DNA of 64,000 bases from NCBI RefSeq assembly GCF_004345025.1, contig NZ_CP037745.1:62001-126000 (forward strand). Direction: 5' to 3'. Below the pieces are notes generated by a model that did not search any database, was not told where the DNA came from, and saw nothing but the letters and a program-made list of their open reading frames with translations. The DNA is from Rheinheimera sp. D18. GTDB lineage: Bacteria; Pseudomonadota; Gammaproteobacteria; Enterobacterales; Alteromonadaceae. A program made the position numbers and the translations under genes. Of this stretch, positions 23,386 through 40,020 are shown piece by piece (position 1 is the first letter of the stretch; each line of letters opens with the position of its first letter).

Positions 23386-26016
23386 ATGGATCATTATGCA
23401 GCGTTACGGGCCAACGTAAGTTTATTAGGTACTAAACTTGGCGAAACTATTCGTGGCCAGCTTGGTAATGCAGTGCTAGAGCGGGTAGAGCAAATTCGTT
23501 TGTTATCTAAAGCTGGGCGTCAAGGCGAAGAACTACAAGCCGAGCAATTAAAGCAGGTGCTGCGTAGTTTAACGGACGACGAATTATTGCCGGTAGCGCG
23601 CGCATTTGCGCAATTTTTAAATTTAGCTAACCTAGCGGAGCAACACTACACCATTAGCCGTATTGGCCAAGCCAGTATTGAGAAACCCGAACCTTTGCAA
23701 GAGCTGTTTAGTTTACTAGACAGTAAGCAGTTAAATAGCGCAGCGGTAGAGCAAGCCGCCGCCAACTTATCTATTGAGTTAGTGTTAACCGCACATCCTA
23801 CCGAGGTGTCGCGGCGTACGTTAATTCATAAACTCACCGAGATTGCCGGCTGTCTAAGCGAGTTAGAGCAAGATTTAACGACGCAACAGCAGCAAAAAGT
23901 TGAAGTGCGCTTAAGCGAGCTTATTGCCCAAGCTTGGCACACTAATGAAATACGCGAGCAGCGACCAACGCCGGTTGATGAAGCAAAGTCGGGTTTTGCT
24001 GTTATTGAAGCATCACTATGGTATGCGGTGCCAGATTTTTTACGTGAACTGGATACCAAGTTAATTGATGCAACTGGAACAGGTTTAGCACTTGATGCGG
24101 CGCCAGTGAAGTTTTCATCGTGGATGGGCGGGGATCGTGACGGTAATCCTTTTGTTACCGCCAAAGTAACACGTCAAGTATTGCTACTTAGCCGGTGGAA
24201 AGCCGCCGATTTATTTGCGCAGGATATTGATTTACTTAGTAGTGAATTGTCGATGCATCAGGCGAATGATGCTCTGCGAGCTGTCATTGGCGATGTCAGT
24301 GAGCCTTATCGTTTGCTATTAAATAAGCTGCGCACAGGCTTGCTGCAAACCCGAGATTGGTTAACAGAAGCGTTAAAACATGACCGCTTGCAGCGCCCGC
24401 AAGATTTAATTTGGCATAATCAGCAATTACTGACGCCACTGTTGCTGTGTCATCAATCGTTGTTAGATTGCAACATGGCTGTAATAGCCAATGGCAAATT
24501 GCTGGATACCATACGTCGTGCCTATGCTTTTGGTTTAACGTTGTTAAAACTAGATATTCGCCAAGACGCTGACCGGCATGCGCAGGTATTTAGTGAACTG
24601 ACCAAATACCTTGGCTTGGGGGATTATGCCGCTTGGGATGAAGCTGCACGCCAAGCGTTTTTATTAACTGAGCTGGCTAATCGCCGGCCGTTGTTCCCGA
24701 CAACATGGCAGCCGTCGGCTGAGGTGCAAGAGGTGTTAGATACCTGCGCTACCATCGCTCATCATGGTAGTGAAGCGCTAAGCACCTATGTTATTTCTAT
24801 GGCGGGTAAACCGTCCGACGTATTGGCCGTGCAGTTGCTGTTAAAAGAAGCAGACGTTAGTTTCAGCATGCCAGTAGCACCCTTGTTTGAAACCTTAAAT
24901 GATTTACAACATGCACCAGATTGTATGCGTAAGTTGCTGAGTATTGACTGGTATCGCGGTTATATTAACGGCAAACAAGAAGTGATGATTGGCTACTCTG
25001 ACTCGGCAAAAGATGCCGGCGTGTTTGCGGCTGCATGGGCCCAATACAGTGCGCAAGAAGCGCTAGTAGCCATTTGTCAGCAAGCTAACGTGCGGCTTAC
25101 GTTATTTCATGGTCGTGGCGGCACTATTGGTCGTGGCGGTGGCCCAGCGCACGCGGCTATTTTATCGCAACCGCCCGGTTCCTTAGCCGGTGGGCTTAGG
25201 GTAACTGAGCAGGGTGAAATGATCCGCTTTAAGTTTGGTTTACCTAAGTTGGCCGAACGCAGTTTAGCGCTGTACGCCAGTGCAGTGTTAGAAGGAATGT
25301 TGCTACCACCACCAGTACCAAAGCAAAGCTGGCGCGATTTTATGCAGCAGCTGGCCGATGATTCCTGCGAGGCGTATCGTGCGGTGGTGCGACATAATAA
25401 AGATTTTGTGTCTTATTTTCGTGCTGCTACACCTGAGCAAGAGCTGGGCCAATTACCATTAGGTAGTCGGCCAGCCAAGCGTAACCCTACTGGAGGCGTT
25501 GAAAGCCTGCGTGCTATTCCGTGGATTTTTGCTTGGTCGCAAAACCGCTTAATGCTGCCGGCTTGGCTTGGCGCTGGTAGTGCGCTAGCAAAGGCGGTAC
25601 AACAAAATAAAACCGCTTTACTAGATGAAATGCAGCAACAGTGGCCGTTTTTTGCTACCCGAATGTCAATGCTAGAAATGGTGTACGTAAAAGCCGATGC
25701 CGAAATTGCGGCCTATTACGATAAAATACTGGTCGGCGCTGAGCTAAAACACCTAGGCGAAAGCCTGCGGCAACAGTTAGCGACGGATCGAGAGTTACTG
25801 CTGCAGTTAATTCATAGCGAAACGTTAATGGTAAAAGAAAGTTGGATCCGCGAATCTATTATATTGCGTAATACTTATATCGACCCGTTACATATTTTAC
25901 AGGTTGAATTGTTGCATCGGGTACGGCACCAGCCGGAGCGGGTAAACCCGATGATTAGCCGTGCACTAATGGTGACTATTGCCGGTATTGCCGCAGGCAT
26001 GCGAAATTCGGGCTAG
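23386..26016 (+). CDS. ppc: Phosphoenolpyruvate carboxylase
   Basis: An 876-residue protein (E. coli Ppc is 883) with the family's active-site blocks in order. These are VLTAHPTEVSRRTL with the catalytic His near residue 138, GGDRDGNPFVT near 248, GYSDSAKDAG near 540, FHGRGGTIGRGGGP near 577, and a C-terminal AAGMRNSG (the usual ending is NTG). It carboxylates PEP to oxaloacetate to replenish the TCA cycle, in the cytosol. The gene is probably transcribed alone; the next gene, the split channel, starts 28 nt downstream and could be read through. Confidence 0.96.
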   Translation: MDHYAALRANVSLLGTKLGETIRGQLGNAVLERVEQIRLLSKAGRQGEELQAEQLKQVLRSLTDDELLPVARAFAQFLNLANLAEQHYTISRIGQASIEKPEPLQELFSLLDSKQLNSAAVEQAAANLSIELVLTAHPTEVSRRTLIHKLTEIAGCLSELEQDLTTQQQQKVEVRLSELIAQAWHTNEIREQRPTPVDEAKSGFAVIEASLWYAVPDFLRELDTKLIDATGTGLALDAAPVKFSSWMGGDRDGNPFVTAKVTRQVLLLSRWKAADLFAQDIDLLSSELSMHQANDALRAVIGDVSEPYRLLLNKLRTGLLQTRDWLTEALKHDRLQRPQDLIWHNQQLLTPLLLCHQSLLDCNMAVIANGKLLDTIRRAYAFGLTLLKLDIRQDADRHAQVFSELTKYLGLGDYAAWDEAARQAFLLTELANRRPLFPTTWQPSAEVQEVLDTCATIAHHGSEALSTYVISMAGKPSDVLAVQLLLKEADVSFSMPVAPLFETLNDLQHAPDCMRKLLSIDWYRGYINGKQEVMIGYSDSAKDAGVFAAAWAQYSAQEALVAICQQANVRLTLFHGRGGTIGRGGGPAHAAILSQPPGSLAGGLRVTEQGEMIRFKFGLPKLAERSLALYASAVLEGMLLPPPVPKQSWRDFMQQLADDSCEAYRAVVRHNKDFVSYFRAATPEQELGQLPLGSRPAKRNPTGGVESLRAIPWIFAWSQNRLMLPAWLGAGSALAKAVQQNKTALLDEMQQQWPFFATRMSMLEMVYVKADAEIAAYYDKILVGAELKHLGESLRQQLATDRELLLQLIHSETLMVKESWIRESIILRNTYIDPLHILQVELLHRVRHQPERVNPMISRALMVTIAGIAAGMRNSG

Positions 26017-26044
26017 TATAAGTGTGTTTTAATAAGGAGTGAGT

Positions 26045-26335
26045 ATGACGTGTCGGCTAGCTAGGCGCGCAATAGTGCAGTTAGTAGTCGTGTTGCTATG
26101 TTGCATAAGCTTTACAACTATTGCGGCAGAAGTAGAGCCAGTTGCTAAGCCGATATCAATCGTAAACATGCCGCAAGATCAAGCGATAGCGGCTCGTTTA
26201 TTAGCCATTACCAAAGCTATTGCTGGCCTAGAGCAAGTTGAAGTAAAAGTAGAAGCTGGTGTGCTAAGTCTTAGTGGTGAAGTTGCCAATGCACAACTAA
26301 GCCGAGATGTTGAAAAAATAGCCAATAGCCAATAG
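26045..26335 (+). CDS. Signal peptide and partial BON domain: N-terminal part of a frameshifted MscS-type channel gene
   Basis: From ATG 26045 (AAGGAG 5 nt upstream) the 96-residue product has a signal/hydrophobic segment ending IAAEVEP. The first two thirds of a BON domain follow (AARLLAITKAIAGLEQVEVKVEAGVLSLSGEV), then a stop at 26333-26335. The frame stops inside a 7-bp tandem repeat. In the next frame the sequence reads IANRLEGVVYVQNNL, the expected end of a BON domain, and runs straight into the channel. Removing one 7-bp unit fuses both parts into a 448-residue protein. So this is very likely the 5' half of one gene, either broken or switchable. Confidence 0.75.
   Translation: MTCRLARRAIVQLVVVLLCCISFTTIAAEVEPVAKPISIVNMPQDQAIAARLLAITKAIAGLEQVEVKVEAGVLSLSGEVANAQLSRDVEKIANSQ
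26318..26335 (+). repeat. 7-bp tandem repeat (ATAGCCA x 2 plus ATAG) causing a frameshift
   Basis: ATAGCCA occurs at 26318-26324 and 26325-26331, and ATAG follows at 26332-26335. A change of one unit shifts the reading frame of the BON-MscS gene, and the TAG stop that ends the 5' part lies within the repeat. Confidence 0.9.
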
Positions 26336-26354
26336 GCTAGAGGGCGTTGTATAT

Positions 26355-27398
26355 GTGCAAAATAATTTGCAAGAACAATTAGCCGTTCGCTCTCGGCTTA
26401 CCCCTGCTAGTGAAAAGCTTCAAGAGATACTAAATAAAGCGCTGCAAATGTTGCCGCTATTCTTATTGGCGTTAATCGTTGTTGTTGCTTTTGCCCAACT
26501 TGGCGCTTGGCTAACAAGACGCAGTGCTTGGTTGCGGCGGCTTGGGTTTAGTGAGTTAGCGTCAAACTTAGGCATGCGCTTTGTTCGCTTAGTCATTACG
26601 GGTATTGGCGTGTTAATTGCGTTAGAGCTGCTAGACGCGACTGCATTAGTTAGTGCCGCCTTGGGTATTGCCGGGGTAATTGGTATCGCCCTTGGCTTTG
26701 CGTTTCGCAATATTGTCGAAAACTATTTAGCTGGAGTATTATTAAGAACTCGAAACCCATTTGCCGTGGGAGACCAAATTCAGGTTGGCGATTTCATCGG
26801 TAGTGTGGTTCGACTTACGTCACGTGACACAGTATTAATGACGTTTGACGGTAACCATTTACGCATTCCCAATAGCGACATTATCACTTCAGCACTGACT
26901 AACTTTTCACGCAACCCATTACGTCGTTTTGGCTTTAATGTCGGTGTTTCGGTGGAGCTAGATTTAATTAAAGTACGCCAGCTAGGCATTGCGACACTTA
27001 CCAAGATGACGGGTATTTTAACTGATCCGGCGCCGCGCTGTTTAGTGGCAGAGTTAGGCGATAGTGCGGTGTCACTACAGTTTTTTGCTTGGATAAATCA
27101 GACTGATACCTACTTTTTAAAAGCCCGAAGTGAAGCTATTCGTTTAGTAAAATCAGCATTTGATGACGCAGGCATTGAAATGCCTGAGCCTATTTATCGT
27201 ATTCATATAGCTGAAAATTTGAGCGCTAATACACAACCCAAACCTATTGCTAACCCTGCTATGAGTGCAGCGATGGCTGACGTTACCAATCATGCCGAGG
27301 TTGATGTTAGCACCGACGAAACTATTCCTGAACAATTAGCCGCAGATTTAGAAAGCTCGAATGAAGAAAATTTATTAACTAAAAAGCCTAAACAGTAA
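26355..27398 (+). CDS. MscS-family mechanosensitive channel, C-terminal part of the split gene
   Basis: 347 residues from GTG 26355. Hydrophobic helices lie at about 31-51, 76-98 and 102-125. The third is the pore helix (ALGIAGVIGIALGFAFRNIVENYLAG) with the Gly/Ala packing of MscS. The beta domain (NPFAVGDQIQVGDFIGSV, TFDGNHLRIPNSDI, NFSRNP) and the C-terminal cage follow. An extra tail of about 50 residues is acidic. The frame is open upstream of GTG to 26319 and encodes a BON end (see the 5' part). If translation restarts at the GTG, a channel without its BON domain and signal peptide could still be made. It would gate in response to membrane tension. Confidence 0.85.
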   Translation: MQNNLQEQLAVRSRLTPASEKLQEILNKALQMLPLFLLALIVVVAFAQLGAWLTRRSAWLRRLGFSELASNLGMRFVRLVITGIGVLIALELLDATALVSAALGIAGVIGIALGFAFRNIVENYLAGVLLRTRNPFAVGDQIQVGDFIGSVVRLTSRDTVLMTFDGNHLRIPNSDIITSALTNFSRNPLRRFGFNVGVSVELDLIKVRQLGIATLTKMTGILTDPAPRCLVAELGDSAVSLQFFAWINQTDTYFLKARSEAIRLVKSAFDDAGIEMPEPIYRIHIAENLSANTQPKPIANPAMSAAMADVTNHAEVDVSTDETIPEQLAADLESSNEENLLTKKPKQ

Positions 27399-27415
27399 TA
27401 ATCAATTTAGGCTTT
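27383..27415 (-). terminator. Bidirectional terminator between the channel gene and msrAB
   Basis: A 10-bp perfect stem (AAAGCCTAAA/TTTAGGCTTT) has a 13-nt loop. On the minus strand it is followed by T-rich sequence and lies 24 nt past the Msr fusion stop. On the plus strand it overlaps the last codons of the channel gene. Confidence 0.65.
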
Positions 27416-27438
27416 ATGCTGACTATAAGATTGCTTTA

Positions 27439-28710
27439 CTAACGTGGCACAAAATCTAGTACCGTGGCGTTAATGCAATAGCGTGGCTGGCCATTGGGGC
27501 CATCATTAAATACGTGTCCTAAATGGATACCCGATACCGCTGCGCGAATTTCGGTGCGGCGCATACCATAACGGTTATCCGGCTTTTCTATAACCGCATC
27601 TGTAACCGGTTTAGTAAAAGACAACCAGCCAGTGCCTGAATCAAAGCGGTCGCGGGTATCAAATAAAGCTGCGCCGCTTAACTTATCAATAAATACACCG
27701 TCGGGAGTATTTTTGAAAATTTCATATTGCTGACAAAATTGGCCGTCAGTGCCTTCGTCAAAGGCAATGTTAAACGCTTCACTATCGCCCAATTTAAACT
27801 TGCCTAGCAGTAAATAAAAATCGCTGGGGCTTAAATAGCCTTGGCGGTCATATACCTCTTTACCATTTTGCAGCAAAATAATGGTCGGTGTAGCCCAAGT
27901 TGGCGAAGTAATATTTAAGCCTGTAAGCTGAGTAGCAAAGCGAAAACTAAGCGGAATGTCGCCACTGTATTTGCTGGCAACATCGGCCTTAAACTTTTCG
28001 CAGTATGGGCAATAATTTTCAGAATCTATAACTAAAATATGTTTGCCAATAAGCAAGCTGCTGTTGTCTGTGGGTGCGGCTTTTTCAGTTGTAGCACTAG
28101 CAAAACGTACGCCAGTGGCATGGTCTGGGCAATAGCCATTAGGGTTATTTGCCAGATAATTCTGATGATACGCCTCTGCCGGAAAAAACTGCTTTAGCGG
28201 CTTAATTTGCGTGGTAATTTTACCAAACTTAGCTTGGTTCAATAATTGCTGATACGCCAACATTACCTGCTGCGCGGTATCAAACTGGGCACTGCTATTG
28301 GTTAAGATAGTAGAGCGATACTGTGTACCAATATCGTTACCTTGCCGGTTTAACTGCGTTGGGTCATGCATTTCAAAGTAGTGCTGTAGCAGCCGCTCTA
28401 GGCTAATTTCAGCTGGGTTAAAGCTTATTTGTATTACTTCGGCATGATTCTTCGGGTTATTTTTATTACGTTGCTCAGTAATGGCTTTATAGGTTGGCTT
28501 TACACCGTCGCCATCAGCATAGCCCGCAATAGCATCAATTACGCCGGGAATGGCCTCAAAGCGCTTTTCTACGCCCCAAAAACAACCGGCACCTACAACT
28601 ATGGTTTCTAGGTGATTGGTTGCCGGCATGGGTTCTGGGTTGGCTTGTGCGGCGGTATTTAGCATTAACGCACTGCAACAGAGTGTTTTAAGTAGTCTCG
28701 ATATTGTCAT
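27439..28710 (-). CDS. msrAB: Exported MsrA / thioredoxin-like / MsrB fusion
   Basis: Read from ATG 28710 the protein has 423 residues. (ATG 28725 is also possible, but MTISRLLKTL fits a signal peptide better.) The signal peptide ends AQA near 23. An MsrA domain at about 36-195 has the catalytic GCFWG, Cys43. A thioredoxin-like domain at about 218-310 has CPYC at 234-237 and a cis-Pro-type ATPT near 274. An MsrB domain at about 318-423 has the catalytic Cys412 in RYCIN. The fusion would repair both Met-sulfoxide isomers in the periplasm. Neisserial PilB has the order Trx-MsrA-MsrB; here the thioredoxin-like module is in the middle. Confidence 0.88.
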   Translation of the reverse strand: MTISRLLKTLCCSALMLNTAAQANPEPMPATNHLETIVVGAGCFWGVEKRFEAIPGVIDAIAGYADGDGVKPTYKAITEQRNKNNPKNHAEVIQISFNPAEISLERLLQHYFEMHDPTQLNRQGNDIGTQYRSTILTNSSAQFDTAQQVMLAYQQLLNQAKFGKITTQIKPLKQFFPAEAYHQNYLANNPNGYCPDHATGVRFASATTEKAAPTDNSSLLIGKHILVIDSENYCPYCEKFKADVASKYSGDIPLSFRFATQLTGLNITSPTWATPTIILLQNGKEVYDRQGYLSPSDFYLLLGKFKLGDSEAFNIAFDEGTDGQFCQQYEIFKNTPDGVFIDKLSGAALFDTRDRFDSGTGWLSFTKPVTDAVIEKPDNRYGMRRTEIRAAVSGIHLGHVFNDGPNGQPRYCINATVLDFVPR

Positions 28711-28816
28711 ATCCGCGTTACCCATCTACTTGATTATTAATGTAGCTAGTAGACAGGTAAAACACGGTTTAGCTTTCAATATCGCTCAAAAATAAGCAAT
28801 CAGCCGTAAAGCATAG

Positions 28817-37596: not shown

Positions 37597-40020
37597 ATGA
37601 AAAAGTTTGTCAGCGTGGTACTACTAGGTGCGGCATTATGCCTATCTGGTTATGCGCACAGTACGTCAGTAGATATAGGCTATCAGCAACCGGTAAAAGA
37701 GATTGTTGACATAGTAGATGCGGCACCAACACCGAGCGCGAGTTTAAGCCCTAATGGCCAGACCATGCTGAGTTTAACTTATCCAGCGTTGCCGGTATTA
37801 GCCGACTTAGCCGCACCAGAATACCGATTAGCGGGTGTAAGGTTTAACCCAGCCAATAGTAGCCCAGCTATGCCACGCTATATTTCGGCGTTACAGTTAA
37901 TTGATTTAGCCTCAACTAACAGTAAAACTATTTCTGGTTTACCAGCCGACCTTAAAGCGACCAATTTAACGTGGTCGCCTGACAGTCGTTATTTGGCCTT
38001 TATTCAATTAGATGCTAACCAAGCTACGTTATGGCGTATTGATATTGCAAAAGCTAAAGCTAGCCAATGGTCAAAAAGCCGTTTAAATGCGATTTGGGGC
38101 GCAGGCTTACAGTGGTCTGCTGACAGCCAAGCTATTTACGCATTAACAGTGCCAGCAAAACGCGGCGCTGAGCCAGTGGCGTCTAAAATACCTACGGGAC
38201 CAATTATTACCGAAGCGCGTGGCCGTACTGCGCCGGCGCGTACTTATCAAGATTTATTAAAAGATAAACACGACGAAATTTTATTTAGTTATTACTTTAC
38301 TAGCCAGCTAGTAAAAATTAGCTTAAAAAACAAACTGACAACTATAGGCAAGCCAACACTGTTTAGAAGTGTAGAAGTGTCGCCAGATAACCAGTTAGTG
38401 TTAGTCAGCCGTATAGAACAGCCGTTTTCTTATGCGGTGCCGGTGTCTCGTTTTGCCTATACTAGCGAAGTATGGAATAGCAGCGGTAAGCTAGTGTACA
38501 CCGTGGCGCAAAACCCAGTAGCCGATAACATGCCTATTGCCTTTGATGCGGTGCCTACCGGCCGCCGTTACGCTAGTTGGCGCTCAGATTTGCCAGCAAC
38601 CCTATACTGGGCTGAAGCGGCCGATGGTGGTGATCCGGCACAACAAGCCACAGTACGTGATCAGTTGTTTCAATTAGCGGCACCTTTTACTGCTGAACCG
38701 CAAAAATTACTTGATTTAAGCTTTCGCTTTTCAGGTTTAATGACCGCGGCCAATGGCACTATGTTGGTATGGGAAAATTGGTGGCAAGACCGTCTAGAAA
38801 AAGTATGGCAGCTAGCACCTGATCAAAGCGCCAGTTTATTGTGGGAGCGTTCATCAGAAGATCGCTACAATGCGCCCGGCTCACCGTTAACTACTGCCGC
38901 GGCAAATGGTCAGCGCTTACTAAGATTAGAACAAGGTCAAATATATTTAACTGGTGTAGGTGCATCGCCTGAAGGTAACCGTCCATTTATTGATAAAATG
39001 ACTTTAGCTACGGGTAAAACCGAACGCTTATGGCGCTCTGAAGCACCATTTTATGAGTATGTTTATAGCTTACTGCCCAGCGGTAAACTATTAACGCAGC
39101 GCGAATCAACTGATGTACCACCTGACTTTTATTTACGTGATGTGCAATCAGGTGAGTTAACTGCACTAACGCAAACGCCACACCCTATGCCGCAAACTAA
39201 AGGTATAAGCCGCGAGCTAATTAACTATAAGCGTGCTGATGGCATTCCAATGTCGGCAACCTTATTGTTACCAGCAGGTTATCAGCCAGAGCGTGACGGC
39301 CGTTTGCCAACCATGATTTGGGCTTATCCGCGTGAATTTAGAAGTGCGGCTGCAGCGGGGCAAGTAAGTGATTCACCTTACCGTTTTAACCGTATTAGCT
39401 ATTGGACACCGCAGTTTTTAGCCACTCAAGGCTATGCCGTATTAGATAACGCCACTATGCCAATAGTCGGTGAGGGCGATAAAGAGCCAAACGACAGCTT
39501 TATTCAGCAGTTAGTGATGAATGCTGAAGCAGCTATTGCCGCAGGTGTTAGCCGTAAAGTAACCGATCCGAATAGGGTTGCGGTGGGCGGCCACTCTTAC
39601 GGTGCGTTTATGACTGCGCATTTGCTAGCGCAAACTAAGTTATTTAAAGCAGGCATTGCTAGAAGTGGCGCTTATAATCGCAGCTTAACACCGTTTGGTT
39701 TTCAAAGTGAGCAGCGCACCTTATGGGACGATACAAATTTATATACTCAGCTGTCACCATTTTTTCATGCGGATAAAATAAAAACACCTTTGCTATTAAT
39801 CCATGGCACTGATGATAACAACGCCGGCACCTTTCCAATGCAAAGTGAGCGTTTATATCAAGCCGTTAAAGGCTTAGGCGGTACCACTCGATTAGTTATG
39901 TTACCGCTAGAGTCGCACGGTTATCGTGCACGCGAGTCGGTACTGCACATGTTGTGGGAAACAGTTAGCTGGTTAGACGAGTTTGTTAAAAACGCCGATA
40001 CCACAATAAAAACTGAATAA
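37597..40020 (+). CDS. Exported S9-family prolyl-oligopeptidase-like peptidase
   Basis: An 807-residue protein with a signal peptide (cleavage near GYAHS, about residue 22). A beta-propeller of about 500 residues has PDSRYLAFIQL and PDNQLVLVSR blade motifs. The C-terminal alpha/beta hydrolase domain carries nucleophile Ser667 in GGHSYG, Asp739/740 in HGTDDNN and His774 in ESHGYR. This is the layout of the S9 glutamyl-endopeptidase/acylaminoacyl-peptidase-like group. It probably degrades peptides in the periplasm or outside the cell. AGGGGATT precedes the ATG. It is a single gene with its own terminator. Confidence 0.9.
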   Translation: MKKFVSVVLLGAALCLSGYAHSTSVDIGYQQPVKEIVDIVDAAPTPSASLSPNGQTMLSLTYPALPVLADLAAPEYRLAGVRFNPANSSPAMPRYISALQLIDLASTNSKTISGLPADLKATNLTWSPDSRYLAFIQLDANQATLWRIDIAKAKASQWSKSRLNAIWGAGLQWSADSQAIYALTVPAKRGAEPVASKIPTGPIITEARGRTAPARTYQDLLKDKHDEILFSYYFTSQLVKISLKNKLTTIGKPTLFRSVEVSPDNQLVLVSRIEQPFSYAVPVSRFAYTSEVWNSSGKLVYTVAQNPVADNMPIAFDAVPTGRRYASWRSDLPATLYWAEAADGGDPAQQATVRDQLFQLAAPFTAEPQKLLDLSFRFSGLMTAANGTMLVWENWWQDRLEKVWQLAPDQSASLLWERSSEDRYNAPGSPLTTAAANGQRLLRLEQGQIYLTGVGASPEGNRPFIDKMTLATGKTERLWRSEAPFYEYVYSLLPSGKLLTQRESTDVPPDFYLRDVQSGELTALTQTPHPMPQTKGISRELINYKRADGIPMSATLLLPAGYQPERDGRLPTMIWAYPREFRSAAAAGQVSDSPYRFNRISYWTPQFLATQGYAVLDNATMPIVGEGDKEPNDSFIQQLVMNAEAAIAAGVSRKVTDPNRVAVGGHSYGAFMTAHLLAQTKLFKAGIARSGAYNRSLTPFGFQSEQRTLWDDTNLYTQLSPFFHADKIKTPLLLIHGTDDNNAGTFPMQSERLYQAVKGLGGTTRLVMLPLESHGYRARESVLHMLWETVSWLDEFVKNADTTIKTE

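Follow-up and report, generated by a model that had tools for sequence, protein, structure and literature searches.

A gene for a mechanosensitive channel with a BON domain, found in the 64,000-nucleotide stretch of Rheinheimera sp. D18 DNA that was analysed (the window), is divided between two reading frames at a 7-bp tandem duplication, and comparison with its relatives suggests that it is probably a recent frameshift allele, produced by replication slippage, of an ordinary one-gene BON-MscS channel. The evidence lies in the two halves of the gene, in the orthologues that read through the same point as one gene, and in the repeat itself.

One gene in two reading frames

The features concerned are the following.

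23386..26016, + strand: upstream neighbour, an intact phosphoenolpyruvate carboxylase gene (PF00311, 1090.8 bits)
26036..26039, + strand: likely Shine-Dalgarno sequence GGAG of the BON-MscS gene, by motif only, 5 nt before ATG 26045
26045..26335, + strand: 5′ part of the gene, 96 residues, with a signal-peptide-like N-terminus (by eye) and a BON domain without its end
26317-26335, + strand: AATAGCC tandem repeat, in which 7 bp are duplicated as compared with the orthologues
26322..26332, + strand: stretch of 11 nt without a stop in either frame, flanked by TAG 26319 of the channel frame and TAG 26333 of the BON frame
26336..27398, + strand: 3′ part of the gene in another frame, with the BON end, three presumed membrane helices, and the MscS beta and C-terminal domains
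26355..27398, + strand: possible BON-less channel ORF starting at GTG, 347 residues, with a GAGG 11 nt before the GTG

Since 7 is not a multiple of three, translation from ATG 26045 stops inside the BON domain, at TAG 26333-26335, and the channel lies in a different frame, just as the earlier note on this DNA had read from the two repeat units. The Pfam match of the 5′ part to BON (PF04972) covers profile positions 2-53 of 69 and, at 21.8 bits, falls below the 27-bit cut-off. Downstream, the channel frame is open up to 27398 and the 3′ part is intact to its own stop. This part belongs with the MscS-type channels by its beta and C-terminal domains, which exceed their curated cut-offs: it matches PF00924 (MS_channel_2nd) with 64.5 bits (cut-off 20.2) and PF21082 (MS_channel_3rd) with 35.4 bits (cut-off 21), while its match to PF21088 (MS_channel_1st), at 19.8 bits, stays below the cut-off of 23.1. 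The three membrane helices are presumed from visual inspection and from a low-confidence orthologue model; at the first of them stands another in-frame ATG, at 26448. In its MscS domains, seen by Pfam and by PDB sequence matches headed by YnaI and MscS chains, the channel half resembles both its BON-MscS orthologues and MscS proper; in the orthologues from the same family a single protein comprises both BON and channel, and the window has them in two frames. No single ORF thus spans BON and channel here, the frames differing and TAG 26333-26335 intervening, whereas such an ORF is found in 18 of the 18 orthologues compared.

Orthologues, the repeat and the age of the break

The window comes from a genome assembled as a single contig of 3.31 Mb. 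A close BON-MscS orthologue (E 1.1e-143 or better) was found in 16 of the 31 genomes of the genus that were searched, this one included; in the other 15 the best match reached 3.3e-37. Across a sample of 295 genomes from the family, members of the genus among them, 11 match at 1e-50 or better, and only two of the matching genomes (G071 and G275) belong to other genera. The distribution of the gene is patchy. The same-family orthologues fetched, 15 from the 30 genus genomes searched besides this one and those of G071 and G275, number 17, and every one is a single ORF across the junction, of 440-456 residues and with a terminal stop only. A more distant protein from Lysobacter (L034; 474 residues, 38% identical in the channel) is likewise encoded by one BON-MscS ORF. 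The earlier note had offered a recent mutation as one of its two readings, to be given up if orthologues were always two separate genes; that case did not arise, and the 17 intact single genes support the mutation. The 448 residues that it gave for the one-unit protein are arithmetically correct and fit the range of the orthologues.

Domain matches in the 18 orthologous proteins agree with this picture. Pfam finds both BON and MS_channel_2nd in all of them, the latter above its cut-off throughout and BON above its own in 16, with L004 (26.5 bits) and L009 (26.2 bits) just short of 27; their BON match extends to profile position 66-67, against 53 in the window. For one orthologue, L033, a structure model built from three aligned sequences has a mean pLDDT of 54.2, and only its secondary structure was used: a helix at 38-51, strands at 58-62 and 65-69, a helix at 75-87, a strand at 92-95, and then a long helix. 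This low-confidence model agrees with a stop that would remove the last BON strand.

Tandem Repeats Finder (TRF) places AATAGCC 2.7 times in tandem at 26317-26335, with period 7 and 100% matches. It confirms the ATAGCCA repeat that the earlier note had located at 26318-26335, which is the same repeat in another phase (ATAGCCA at 26318-26331 plus ATAG). In a run-length scan the repeat gives 12 matched bases, as compared with 4-6 for the longest period-7 run in each of the 18 orthologous genes; L004 has two tandem repeats, of periods 9 and 13, and none of period 7. The exact two-unit AATAGCC pattern occurs once in the whole genome, and an Rfam search of the window matched nothing. Against 100 Markov simulations of the window, tandem runs (period 4-12) that reach 9 matched bases are as many as expected by chance (2 observed, mean 2.24), whereas of those that reach 12 one was observed, against a mean of 0.07. 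Such statistics are by themselves modest evidence, and it is the relatives that decide whether there was a duplication: its status is more strongly supported because the orthologues read straight through the repeat point. As they do so as single ORFs and without a period-7 repeat, the ancestral state is taken to be one gene, to which a 7-bp duplication has been added in the window. A second short tandem repeat in the window, TAGAAGTG x 2.1 at 38364-38380, lies inside an open ORF of 807 residues (37597-40020) and, with 9 matched bases, is no more than chance would give.

To gauge the age of the break, amino-acid differences between the window gene, taken as two halves, and its nearest orthologue, that of G019, were polarised by the majority of 15 others. 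The window branch carries 12 + 25 = 37 changes (5′ + 3′ halves) and the G019 branch 15 + 41 = 56, with 7 + 6 = 13 ambiguous; there is no excess of amino-acid change on the window branch, and neither half contains a further stop. Because both halves are otherwise intact and show no such excess, the break looks recent. Synonymous divergence from G019 is high (pS 0.58 and 0.76), so that the rate test excludes only a long decay and the break is young relative to the G019 split. The features expected of a recent pseudogene, namely intact orthologues, one disabling change and an otherwise undecayed sequence, are all present. A decayed pseudogene is ruled out by the lack of an extra stop in either half and of an excess of changes, and an old split gene by the single ORFs of all 17 same-family orthologues and of the Lysobacter protein.

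The neighbourhood of the gene offers some observations of its own. On the far side lies a convergent gene (27439-28725, minus strand) that resembles, by eye, a methionine sulfoxide reductase A-B fusion. G019 and G030 share the order of the window (23386-28725). In G003 (G003:C14:80121-86598, with L045) the BON-MscS gene is flanked by these two neighbours as well, with the carboxylase about 1.1 kb away, but is turned to the other strand with respect to both, an arrangement that suggests a local inversion or re-insertion of the gene. The phosphoenolpyruvate carboxylase of G019 (G019:C1:147935-150557, L039 and L040) is in two ORFs of 223 and 628 residues and that of the window in one of 876; the split in this nearest relative is either genuine or an artefact of its genome sequence.

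Restart, sequencing error or switch

An allele that is split and yet works is conceivable if a ribosome restarts, or another starts, at GTG 26355 and makes a BON-less channel like plain MscS, which is not known to have a BON domain. We regard this as unlikely. The earlier note had allowed for such a product, and it is possible insofar as the ORF retains the MscS beta and C-terminal domains and the three presumed membrane helices, with about 30 residues before the first of them (by eye), has PDB matches to MscS over residues 43-283 and to YnaI over 62-282, begins only 19 nt after the stop, and belongs to a channel half without an excess of amino-acid change (25 against 41). Its start has fared less well: GTG stands at this place in just 10 of the 18 orthologues, and GTA, GTC or GTT in the other 8. 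GTG is usually a weak start, the GAGG before it stands 11 nt away, and the break appears too young for an intact frame to prove use.

The A6 run (26313-26318) was rejected as a site of programmed frameshifting or of slippage in transcription, as the channel frame meets TAG 26319 beyond the run and ahead of the repeat; by eye, the 26322-26332 overlap contains no recognised slippery site of the kind that a programmed frameshift calls for.

That the true sequence holds one unit, and the second is an assembly or sequencing error, would fit the one-unit arrangement of all 18 compared orthologues; we nevertheless consider it quite improbable. Read errors fall mainly in homopolymers, and a 7-bp duplication is not typical of them. 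A frame survey, which detects frame changes and not in-frame stops, set ORFs of at least 120 residues, beginning with ATG and taken from 280 kb in three relatives, against the window. In 92 of these the best match reached at least 40% identity (one of them covers 0.26 of its query, in a single frame), and together they cover 45 of the 55 listed window ORFs; the 10 without a counterpart are seven between 5218 and 10889, plus those at 37597, 40751 and 45362. Just three of the 92 change frame, and all three are the BON-MscS gene (in G019, G003 and G030), so that none of the other compared window ORFs does so and a generally poor assembly is not supported. For nine of the 92 the alignment runs through in-frame stops of the window: five are, by position, antisense shadows of other ORFs, and the other four (from 1634; up to 3747, 49730 and 63173) reach beyond the point where the window ORF starts, for which an over-long start in the relative is the simplest account.

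The earlier note had also raised a phase switch, with the full channel expressed or silenced as the unit number changes. A switch of this kind, maintained by selection, is not supported, and we hold it to be very improbable. As in a contingency gene, a frame-shifting tandem repeat lies within the gene, and early in it, with a unit length that is not a multiple of three. Its copies are few, however, only 2.7; none of the 18 orthologous genes, all from other species, has such a repeat (no period-7 run exceeds 6 matched bases), let alone one kept with a varying unit number, the exact pattern is single in the genome, and no other allele was seen. Nor is a channel the usual surface-antigen target of phase variation. 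Short repeats in few copies do vary, as reported for 3 x 4 bp in lacI (PMC3485313) and 3 x 6 bp in mutL (PMC2955026), but the available text of the latter also describes over ten thousand non-mutator Salmonella colonies in which no mutL conversion was seen (PMC2955026). A slow switch between two states, a BON-bearing channel from one unit and a BON-less, MscS-like one started at the GTG from two, seems to us scarcely credible; if it were true, slippage would alter the envelope sensing of the channel instead of simply shutting it off. If shown, a switch in a mechanosensitive channel would make an unusual example of phase variation. Among the matches listed for channels and phase variation (titles and the beginnings of abstracts) there is no phase-variable MscS, and those for BON, OsmY, periplasmic and channel literature, taken at the same depth, describe no BON-MscS protein; a search joining BON, mechanosensitive and MscS yielded no paper, and in the available text of one paper BON proteins and channels are treated apart (PMC8909678).

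Probable slippage, known repeats and consequences

A recent frameshift allele, the reading we prefer, also has a plausible origin in the bases themselves. When one unit is set aside, those that remain still carry a 5-bp direct repeat, AATAG-CC-AATAG. The codons for the BON end may have come to contain this direct repeat in the present lineage, and the replicating strand would then have slipped by one repeat, so that 7 bp were copied twice to give AATAGCC x 2.7. The resulting allele would first yield a short peptide without the BON end and would not give the full BON-MscS protein; translation of the channel half from the two-unit allele is still conceivable. Reverse slippage may remove the duplication, presumably at a mutation rate and not at a switch rate, and with 2.7 copies reversion would be expected to be rare and visible only under selection.

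Comparable repeats are known from other genes. The (CTGG)3 repeat of lacI, in E. coli and in the phe-lacI assay of P. putida, is likewise a short tandem repeat within a gene, with a unit that is not a multiple of three and whose gain or loss breaks the frame; it differs from the 2.7 units of 7 bp in the window in having three units of 4 bp and in being a measured hotspot, gain or loss of CTGG at the three copies being reported as the largest class of lacI-inactivating changes in the P. putida assay (PMC3485313). The (GCTGGC)3 repeat of mutL in Salmonella and E. coli, proposed as a genetic switch, is again short and in few copies, and its reversible changes are attributed to slippage, but its 6 bp keep the frame, whereas the repeat in the window is new and breaks it; for mutL, three copies are described as wild type in both S. 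typhimurium LT2 and E. coli B (PMC2955026). In mutator Salmonella, according to the same available text, about half of the population had regained normal mutL by day 30, when the culture held about equal numbers of both alleles, so that few-copy repeats can revert visibly when selected (PMC2955026). Reports on repeats of 6-9 nt are said to be rare (PMC4692102), and what is available of a study on agr describes reversion through an undone duplication-inversion or a poly(A) change, and an isolate with an agrA duplication that gave no revertants (PMC6686034).

With the contingency loci of Haemophilus, Neisseria and Campylobacter the gene shares a frame-shifting repeat early in the coding sequence. 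Those loci have long repeats of many units, found across strains and switching fast, and nothing of the kind (many units, cross-strain occurrence or fast switching) was seen in the window gene.

For the cell, losing the BON-MscS channel is probably affordable. The loss looks so because 15 of the 31 genus genomes do without a close orthologue, and because this genome has five PF00924 matches, four of them besides the gene itself, and one MscL. For annotation, the consequence is that this locus would be recorded as one disrupted gene and not as two proteins. As one more recent frameshift allele, the gene offers a tidy example of how a 5-bp repeat present by chance may seed a short tandem duplication.
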